Positions 30,896-32,817 of a stretch of DNA of 64,000 nucleotides are shown here, one piece after another; position 1 is the stretch's first letter, and each line of letters starts with the position of its first letter. The position numbers were made by a program, and so were the translations under genes. Under the pieces are notes generated by a model, which worked only from the letters and a program-made list of their open reading frames with translations, was not told the origin of the DNA and did not search any database. The stretch is from Haloterrigena alkaliphila (GTDB lineage Archaea; Halobacteriota; Halobacteria; Halobacteriales; Natrialbaceae), in the NCBI RefSeq assembly GCF_017352155.2, contig NZ_CP071462.1, forward strand, positions 3,038,001-3,102,000. The letters run 5' to 3'.

Positions 30896-31441
30896 ATGAG
30901 CACCCAAAAGACCGTCCGTCAATCGGCAGACAGCGTCGAGGAGAACGAGCTTCGCCTCGAGCAGGAGAAGGCCGAGCAGATCGTCGACGCGCTGAACTCC
31001 GAACTCGCGAACTCGTACGTCCTCTACCACCAGCTCAAGAAACACCACTGGGTCGTCGAGGGCGCCGAGTTCCTGCCCCTCCACGAGTTCCTCGAGGAAG
31101 CCTACGAAAACGTCGAGGAGGGCGCCGACGTCATCGCCGAGCGCGCCCAGGCGCTGGGCGGCGTCCCCGTCTCCGGACCGACCAACCTCGAGGAGCGCGC
31201 GACCGTCGAGTTCGAGGGCGAGGACGTCTACGACGTCCGCACGATGTTCGAGAACGACCTCGAGATGTACGGCGACATCATCGAGTCGATGCGCGGCAGC
31301 ATCGAACTCGCCGAGAACCTCGGCGATCCCGCCACGAGCGAGATCCTCCGCGAGATCCTCGTCCACCTCGAGGAAGACGGCCACCACTTCGAACACTACC
31401 TCGAGGACGACACGCTGGTCCTCGAAGAAGCCACGAAGTAA
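30896..31441 (+). CDS. dpsA: DNA-protecting ferritin DpsA
   Basis: The product (181 aa) is a Dps-type mini-ferritin that forms a dodecamer, oxidises Fe(II) and stores Fe(III), protecting DNA against peroxide. The interfacial ferroxidase residues are in YHQLKKHHWVVEGAEFLPLH (His, about residue 51) and LHEFLEEAYENVEEGADVIA (Glu/Asp, about 66-82), followed by ERAQALGGVP, the canonical Dps order. Length and start agree with haloarchaeal DpsA. It is monocistronic; 3' of it lies a dispersed repeat copy. Confidence 0.96.
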   Translation: MSTQKTVRQSADSVEENELRLEQEKAEQIVDALNSELANSYVLYHQLKKHHWVVEGAEFLPLHEFLEEAYENVEEGADVIAERAQALGGVPVSGPTNLEERATVEFEGEDVYDVRTMFENDLEMYGDIIESMRGSIELAENLGDPATSEILREILVHLEEDGHHFEHYLEDDTLVLEEATK

Positions 31442-31970
31442 TCGGACGCGTCGTCGCTCGAGTCACCACGCAGCGTCGTCGATCGAATTCCCGTTTTGTT
31501 GTCGCGTCGATTCGACAGCGACCGGTTTCGCCGCTGATACGCGTATCCGACGCGCGGTCAGTAGGGGCTGAGAACGTACTACGCTCGGCTGATGAACCGG
31601 CCCGCTGTGGCGCGCGCTGTCGGAGGACCGAGCGACAGCGAGGGGCGCCGACGTAATTGCGCGAGGGATGAGCGAACGAGCCTGCGAGTGAGCGAATCGG
31701 CTGGGGAGGGTGTGAGAATTCCCTGTTGCCACGATAGTAGAACACTGGTTTTCGATTACTTTCCATCTAAATACTCCGTTCAATAAGCACGTATACAAAA
31801 CGGATGAAGACGAACCCACCGGTGAGACAATGGATCGAGGCGCCAGGTGAAAACGGAAGAGAGAGTGGCGTGAGTGCGTGTCGGCGTGGCGATTCGATCC
31901 GTCGGGACCAGTGACGGACGAGCGGTTCGCTCGAGTCGCGCGTCTCGGATCGGGAACCCGTCCCGACGCG
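31442..31970. other. Gene-free stretch with dispersed repeat copy C
   Basis: About 530 bp between convergent genes. The middle (31605-31764) is the repeat copy C; the rest shows no supported gene. Reading frames that cross it carry repeat-derived peptides only. Confidence 0.7.
31605..31764 (+). repeat. Dispersed repeat, copy C
   Basis: This copy begins CTGTGGCGCGCGCTGTCGG, continues GCGCGAGGGATGAGCGAA and GAGCGAATCGGCTGGGGAGG, and ends GTTGCCACG, then AGAACACTGG. These blocks match the reverse complement of copy A and the forward strand of copy B about 18 kb away. No coding capacity. Confidence 0.85.
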
Positions 31971-32138
31971 TCAGCGCTCGAGGTCGACGGTGAGGTCGGT
32001 CGCGATCCAGCCGTCGCAGTTGTCGCGCTCGGTGAAGACGACCTTGCCGGGGCGGGTCTCGTGGCTAGTCACGACCGCCGCCGGCTCCTCGAGGTCCTCG
32101 TCGGTATCGGAATCCTGCCTGCGGGCGGGTACGTCCAT
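31971..32138 (-). CDS. Small acidic protein (55 aa) under a DtxR-like operator
   Basis: The frame ATG 32138 to TGA 31971 encodes a 55-residue protein, MDVPARRQDSDTDEDLEEPA and then VVTSHETRPGKVVFTERDNC with DGWIATDLTVDLER at the end. The second half looks folded and resembles a small conserved haloarchaeal protein type I have seen (TSHE...GKxVF(T)E...DGWI), of unknown function; a single Cys is present. It is too short for usual gene finders. The promoter carries a TATA-like element flanked by two TTAGG-type boxes, so expression is probably controlled by metal availability. Confidence 0.75.
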   Translation of the reverse strand: MDVPARRQDSDTDEDLEEPAAVVTSHETRPGKVVFTERDNCDGWIATDLTVDLER

Positions 32139-32146
32139 CACGTGGA

Positions 32147-32188
32147 CTTAGGTGCACCTAAATCTAAAAAGGTTTTGGTCGGCCTAAG
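32147..32188 (-). promoter_or_regulatory. Twin DtxR/IdeR-like operator boxes around a TATA element
   Basis: Box 1, TTAGGTGCACCTAA (32148-32161), is a perfect 14-bp palindrome. Box 2 (32173-32188) reads TTTTGGTCGGCCTAAG, a degraded copy with the same N6-N4-N6 layout. Between them AATCTAAAAAGG is, on the minus strand, a BRE/TATA-like CCTTTTTAGATT centred about 29 bp before the ATG at 32138. Half-site TTAGG matches DtxR/IdeR-family boxes, so a metal-dependent repressor is the likely ligand. Confidence 0.7.
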
Positions 32189-32343
32189 TCTCTGCGAGGC
32201 GACCCGACCGCGGGGACACGTTCACAGTGCTGGACCTCGTTCGGGACACCATCGCCGTATTATCGCTTCGATCCCCTCGATCCGTCTTAAAGACACCAAC
32301 TGTGTTCGGAAACGATCTTCCGCGATCGTGCGAATCCGAGCGT

Positions 32344-32817
32344 ATGGAGCGACACGTACTGGTGGCGATGGATCGGACCGACGCGTCGGACGCGGCCCTC
32401 GAGTACGCGTTCGAGGAGTATCCCGCGGCGCGGGTCTCCGTCGTGCACGTCACCGTCCCGGCCGGCCCGCTCGCCCGGTTCGGCGGGCGGGATCCGTGCG
32501 AGTACGTGGTTCCCGAACTGACCGCCGACCGGAACGCGGAGCCGCTACCGACGCCGGACCGCTTCACGCGAGCCCAGTGTCGACGGGCCGAGGGCGCACT
32601 CGCTCGCGCCCACGAACTCGCCGAGCGCTACGACAGGGAGATCGAACCGGTCGTCCGCTCCGGCCGCGCGGCGACGGAGATCGCCGCCTACGCGGACGAA
32701 CGCGCGGTCGACCGGATCGTCATCGCGGACCACCCGGCCACGACGTTCCGACCGATTTTCCGGTCGGTCCCCGATGCAGTCGCGAACACCACGGCCACAC
32801 CGGTCACGTCCCTGTAA
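32344..32817 (+). CDS. UspA-fold protein lacking the ATP-binding loop
   Basis: The product (157 aa) has the Usp fold: MERHVLVAMDRTDASDAALE at the N-terminus and RVSVVHVTVP as strand 2. At the C-terminus, where ATP-binding Usp proteins have G-x2-G-x9-G-S/T, it reads IADHPATTFRPIFRSVPDAV, so nucleotide binding is doubtful. Such haloarchaeal UspA-like proteins are common and of unknown role. The ATG at 32344 is the natural start. Its own promoter must lie in the 150 bp shared with the divergent small gene, so the DtxR-like boxes might affect both. Confidence 0.82.
   Translation: MERHVLVAMDRTDASDAALEYAFEEYPAARVSVVHVTVPAGPLARFGGRDPCEYVVPELTADRNAEPLPTPDRFTRAQCRRAEGALARAHELAERYDREIEPVVRSGRAATEIAAYADERAVDRIVIADHPATTFRPIFRSVPDAVANTTATPVTSL

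Follow-up and report, generated by a model that had tools for sequence, protein, structure and literature searches.

The DNA analyzed here, referred to below as the window, is a 64,000-nucleotide stretch of the Haloterrigena alkaliphila genome. Halfway along it lies a small gene whose promoter carries two TTAGG-type boxes and which converges on dpsA:

30896..31441, plus strand: dpsA, encoding a Dps-type ferritin (NCBIfam NF041388 DpsA, 288 bits against a cut-off of 170), convergent neighbor of the small gene
31971..32138, minus strand: small gene of 55 amino acids plus stop, a divergent DUF7331 relative by sequence, identified from its ORF, its orthologues and its dN/dS
32148..32161, palindromic: proximal box, perfect palindrome TTAGGTGCACCTAA, between TATA and ATG; perfect in 128/144 orthologous promoters
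32162..32170, minus strand: TATA-like element TTTTTAGAT, between the boxes, with high information content in 128 aligned promoters
32174..32187, minus strand: distal box TTAGGCCGACCAAA, which deviates from the consensus at one position and overlaps the presumed BRE; paired at 26 bp in 102/144 promoters

An unannotated 55-aa gene had been proposed at this position from the letters of the DNA (the sequence-only reading). We confirmed a 55-codon ORF on the minus strand, with its ATG at 32138 and its stop codon at 31973-31971. Judged by its conservation this ORF is a real gene, since orthologues occur throughout the family and most of the order and the dN/dS is around 0.27. Relatives of the protein were detected above threshold in all 121 sampled genomes of the family, in 74 of the 79 genomes of a second family and in 252 of the 293 sampled Halobacteriales genomes, a count in which a few matches may be paralogues; a sample covering the phylum gave no relative beyond the order. 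The closest named relatives belong to Natrialbaceae, e.g., Halobiforma and Haloterrigena. Because the sampled genomes share ancestry and the same strain in some cases appears under both a named and an unnamed record, neither these counts nor those of the promoters below are independent events, and the weight is carried by the depth of divergence, which reaches about 40% protein identity among orthologues. The median dN/dS is 0.27 for the whole protein and 0.17 for its C-terminal part, while synonymous sites vary freely; by this measure, selection on the coding sequence is clearly purifying.

The encoded protein has an acidic and variable N-terminus followed by a conserved core, VxxHETxPGRxVFTExxNxDGWIATDLTVDLER, in which N40 and W44 are invariant among 68 orthologue sequences. 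In the same 68 sequences we found no conserved metal ligands: there is no conserved cysteine and the histidine is only partly conserved, so that direct metal binding is not suggested by the alignment. According to our profile searches, the protein scores 26.9 bits against Pfam DUF7331, for which the curated cut-off is 27. Some orthologues exceed this value (e.g., 28.1 and 29 bits), and DUF7331 matches 25 of 26 orthologues (E up to 0.1). Both are of equal length and share the conserved C-terminal core, and at the sequence level the small protein and its orthologues appear to form a divergent DUF7331 subfamily. A sequence search of the PDB found no relative. The only element that AlphaFold2 predicted, with 26 or with 68 sequences, was a hairpin of low confidence at residues 23-37 (mean pLDDT around 65, pTM around 0.35), and the structure prediction is uninformative.

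On the gene's strand, the promoter consists of the distal box TTAGGCCGACCAAA (32187-32174), ACC, the TATA-like element TTTTTAGAT (32170-32162), the proximal palindrome TTAGGTGCACCTAA (32161-32148), nine bases and the ATG. The proximal palindrome ends 9 bp before the ATG, and on the forward strand the distal box reads TTTGGTCGGCCTAA. The two boxes are 26 bp apart, start to start, and enclose the TATA-like TTTTTAGA; the element TTTTTAGAT is centered about 28 nt before the ATG. This is the arrangement that the sequence-only reading had described, namely a perfect palindrome with TTAGG half-sites, a second, weaker box 26 bp away and, between them, a TATA-like element about 29 bp before the ATG. 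Since the usual haloarchaeal TATA-to-start distance places the transcription start within a few bases of the ATG here, the mRNA is probably leaderless or nearly so.

Each of the 144 distinct orthologous promoters carries the box no more than 90 nt from its ATG, with one mismatch at the most, and it was present in 0/144 of the control stretches at -200 to -120. This conservation at the same position decides that the box is significant, and it extends across the order. Of the refuting condition set with the sequence-only reading, the part that concerns sequence, a box that is not kept before orthologues, thus does not hold. The pair of boxes occurs in 106 of the 144 promoters, with a spacing of exactly 26 bp in 102 of them; further upstream than the distal box, the information profile of the orthologous promoters is almost flat. 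Among 100 related genomes, 51 contain the exact twin pattern, one copy each, while the reversed control gave none; by comparison of coordinates, these matches lie directly in front of the orthologue. That a palindrome arose by chance before a spurious ORF would be compatible with short ORFs being common in GC-rich DNA and with the relaxed box (2 mismatches allowed), which is found twice in the window against 3.7 expected, i.e., at chance level. However, neither the box in every distinct promoter, nor the protein's presence in all sampled genomes of the family, nor its purifying selection fits this explanation, which the conservation and the dN/dS refute and to which we give practically no credence.

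The pair is not uniform across lineages. Part of the second family and a few other lineages have lost the proximal box and kept the box on the BRE side, sometimes with a new partner box about 20 bp further upstream; in a few lineages only the proximal box is kept. In one genus (g76, loci L265-L269), the pair is shifted upstream: the BRE box remains and is joined, about 20 bp further upstream, by a new TTTAGGTCGGCCTAC-type box; the one preceding the ATG has disappeared.

The genome scan for TTAGG-N4-CCTAA that had been proposed with the sequence-only reading gave 12 exact sites in the 4.27-Mb genome, compared with 0 for the reversed control and about 1.2 predicted from base composition. The box was present in 96 of 100 related genomes, mostly in clear excess over the control. 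The genes directly downstream of the genomic boxes include a FecCD permease, two Fe-siderophore-type Peripla_BP_2 binding proteins, an SBP_bac_6 binding protein and a ferric/spermidine-type ABC ATPase, together with less obvious genes for a cupin, DUF7090, an RGP-type protein and a GMC oxidoreductase with a gluconate-dehydrogenase subunit. From the predicted functions, the set looks like mainly an iron-uptake regulon. The other 11 exact sites lack the 26-bp twin layout around a TATA element.

Four of the exact boxes fall within 11 kb (C1:561000-578000, L140), where they adjoin an SBP_bac_6 ABC transporter, the RGP-type protein and the GMC oxidoreductase with its gluconate-dehydrogenase subunit. 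Paired boxes also occur at C1:1356312/1356346 and C1:2332973/2333008, with a spacing of 34-35 bp instead of 26 bp.

As candidate repressors, the genome encodes four DtxR-family (PF02742) proteins. In Natribaculum breve, a DtxR-family gene and the small gene diverge from the twin boxes between them, and the product of the former is 81% identical to that of one of these four genes. In another genus (g70), a 147-aa DtxR-type gene lies directly upstream, giving the order regulator, small gene, dpsA. Haloarchaeal iron genes are controlled by DtxR-family repressors, Idr1 and Idr2 in Halobacterium, and Haloferax volcanii has Idr (HVO_0538), SirR and TroR (both as summarised in PMC11349517). The DtxR-type repression suggested by the sequence-only reading is thus supported by the box conserved before the orthologues and recurring before iron/siderophore-type transport genes, and we consider it quite probable that the small gene belongs to an iron regulon under DtxR/Idr-type repression and encodes an iron-starvation small protein. 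Several observations fit this assignment less well. The best matches of the genome's DtxR proteins are manganese-regulator models, the regulators adjoining the orthologue differ in type between the two lineages (long in Natribaculum, short in g70), dpsA carries no such box, some box-bearing loci, such as those of the cupin and DUF7090, have no obvious iron role, and the small protein lacks conserved metal ligands.

The same operators could instead respond to manganese, through a SirR/MntR-type repressor controlling a small manganese-homeostasis protein that works like bacterial MntS. The genome's DtxR proteins obtain their best scores against manganese-regulator models, all below cut-off, and the three long ones match an MntR model best, again well below its cut-off; moreover, haloarchaeal manganese and iron regulators overlap (PMC5605881). 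However, the families behind the box are FecCD, Fe-siderophore-binding and ferric-type ABC proteins, and the partner gene dpsA encodes a ferritin. Iron is therefore likelier than manganese by the content of the regulon, which is what the preference rests on, and we hold the manganese explanation to be decidedly improbable.

Two further observations concern the DtxR family. A palindrome-like, wider-spaced TTTAGGGGTAGATGGGTCTAAAC lies just before the start of the DtxR-family gene at C1:3642796 (L078) and, from its position, may be an autoregulatory site of that gene. The small, incomplete genomes of about 1 Mb from one group (f2; G037, G053, G150, and G159) are without the TTAGG box, no small gene was seen in them, and three of the four carry a DtxR gene. 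A shared absence of box, gene and repressor, which we considered, would at most be tentative, given these DtxR genes and the incompleteness of the genomes.

Neither the linkage to dpsA nor the relationship to DUF7331 was part of the sequence-only reading. In 107 of the 114 loci with both genes within reach, dpsA is convergent with the small gene and lies downstream of it. The gap between them has a median of 165 bp, is at most 300 bp in 85 cases, ranges from 7 to more than 2800 bp and measures about 530 bp here. Outside the family, the arrangement is kept in 28 of 40 sampled loci, whereas purM and an aldehyde dehydrogenase gene, frequent neighbors inside the family, accompany the small gene in 0/40 and 1/40. 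A divergent usp gene was considered as part of the unit and rejected, as it was seen in only 4 loci. In Haloferax volcanii, where Idr is HVO_0538 (PMC11349517), we take DpsA to be HVO_0536, so that HVO_0537 may be the orthologue of the small gene there.

The storage gene and the putative starvation gene thus stand back to back, which suggests that the small protein tunes iron storage. That DpsA is its target is a speculative idea which we regard as doubtful. Control of dpsA itself by the same box was rejected, since no match lies near its start. We regard as similarly doubtful the more specific proposal of a dedicated DpsA partner, made only when iron is scarce, that would block iron deposition in DpsA or promote iron release. 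Closer to an even chance is an arrangement in which the regulation is as proposed and the target is a sensor, a transporter or an iron-sparing target unrelated to DpsA, the neighborhood being inherited. In its favor, dpsA is out of reach in about 20% of sampled loci, which nevertheless keep the small gene and its box, and paralogous DUF7331 genes are found away from dpsA; against it, most loci outside the family retain dpsA next to the small gene but not the other neighbors.

The transcript could also matter instead of, or besides, the protein: at low iron, read-through into the convergent dpsA would yield an antisense RNA that lowers DpsA. The tail-to-tail arrangement is kept across the order with a short median gap, and we found no terminator-like site in the stretch 31400-32400. 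However, the protein is under purifying selection with synonymous sites free to vary, the gap differs widely between loci, and some loci with dpsA elsewhere still keep the boxes; we judge this possibility improbable. Both the antisense explanation and the unrelated target bear on the output, and either could go with the same regulation.

For the preferred reading, a DtxR/Idr-type iron regulon, we infer the identity of the repressor, iron as its metal and the direction of regulation. When metal is plentiful, the metal-loaded repressor would occupy both TTAGG boxes: at the distal box it would cover the BRE side of the TATA element, at the proximal box the stretch from TATA to the start, so that TBP/TFB and RNA polymerase would be excluded from both sides. 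A drop in iron would release the repressor and allow transcription of a nearly leaderless mRNA encoding the 55-aa protein. The protein would then be made alongside the iron-uptake genes that share the box and would work during iron starvation, adjusting iron storage, for which an action on DpsA would be the simplest route.

Known systems resemble this arrangement in part. In bacteria, two dimers bind the DtxR/IdeR operator, a palindrome of 19 bp; the haloarchaeal box has the same TTAGG/CCTAA half-sites but is 14 bp long with a 4-bp center. Bacterial MntS and the Bacillus Fbp proteins are very short, metalloregulator-repressed, metal-economy proteins made at metal starvation. The small protein is likewise very short and predicted to be under metalloregulator repression, but it belongs to a different domain of life and we claim no sequence relation. 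Bfd, the bacterioferritin-associated ferredoxin, is small, iron-repressed and encoded beside a ferritin-family gene, as is predicted here. Unlike Bfd, the haloarchaeal protein has no conserved cysteines and hence no iron-sulphur cluster, and a Bfd-like iron-sulphur protein was rejected for this reason. If the DpsA-partner proposal is true, the partner would be a cysteine-free archaeal functional counterpart of the bacterial ferritin-mobilising factors. Among haloarchaeal small proteins, Brz of Halobacterium has a zinc-finger motif and is encoded next to its target, the gene it controls, in the same orientation (as outlined in PMC2253796); the protein described here is also encoded beside another gene but has no such motif, and its neighbor is convergent. 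Haloarchaeal DtxR-family iron regulons, as summarised in PMC11349517, share with our candidate regulon the type of regulator and a common box before iron/siderophore-type transport genes; they differ in that the target here is a small protein whose promoter has its two boxes at a spacing of exactly 26 bp, one on either side of the TATA element.

The small gene is close to universal among Halobacteriales, its promoter layout is rigid, and it has stayed by dpsA while other neighbors changed, which raises the question of an archaeal small protein that shifts cells from iron storage to iron use. These features suggest that the protein is an unstudied part of the haloarchaeal response to iron shortage. 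An order-wide small target, a rigid twin operator and the dpsA link appear to be new within a limited literature search, which found no paper on DUF7331 or HVO_0537; the gene may have been listed earlier as an Idr or TroR target.

The canonical members of DUF7331 differ from the small gene in their promoters: the TTAGG box is absent there, and many of them have another conserved palindrome. Judging from their promoters, the DUF7331 genes may answer to more than one regulator. One canonical gene of the same genome (L028, C1:2953375-2953536) has its own conserved TATA-box element, AAGACATATAATGTGGTAACACATAnCAT. This near-palindrome bears no relation to the TTAGG box and is conserved in 22 of 30 loci (L013-L042).
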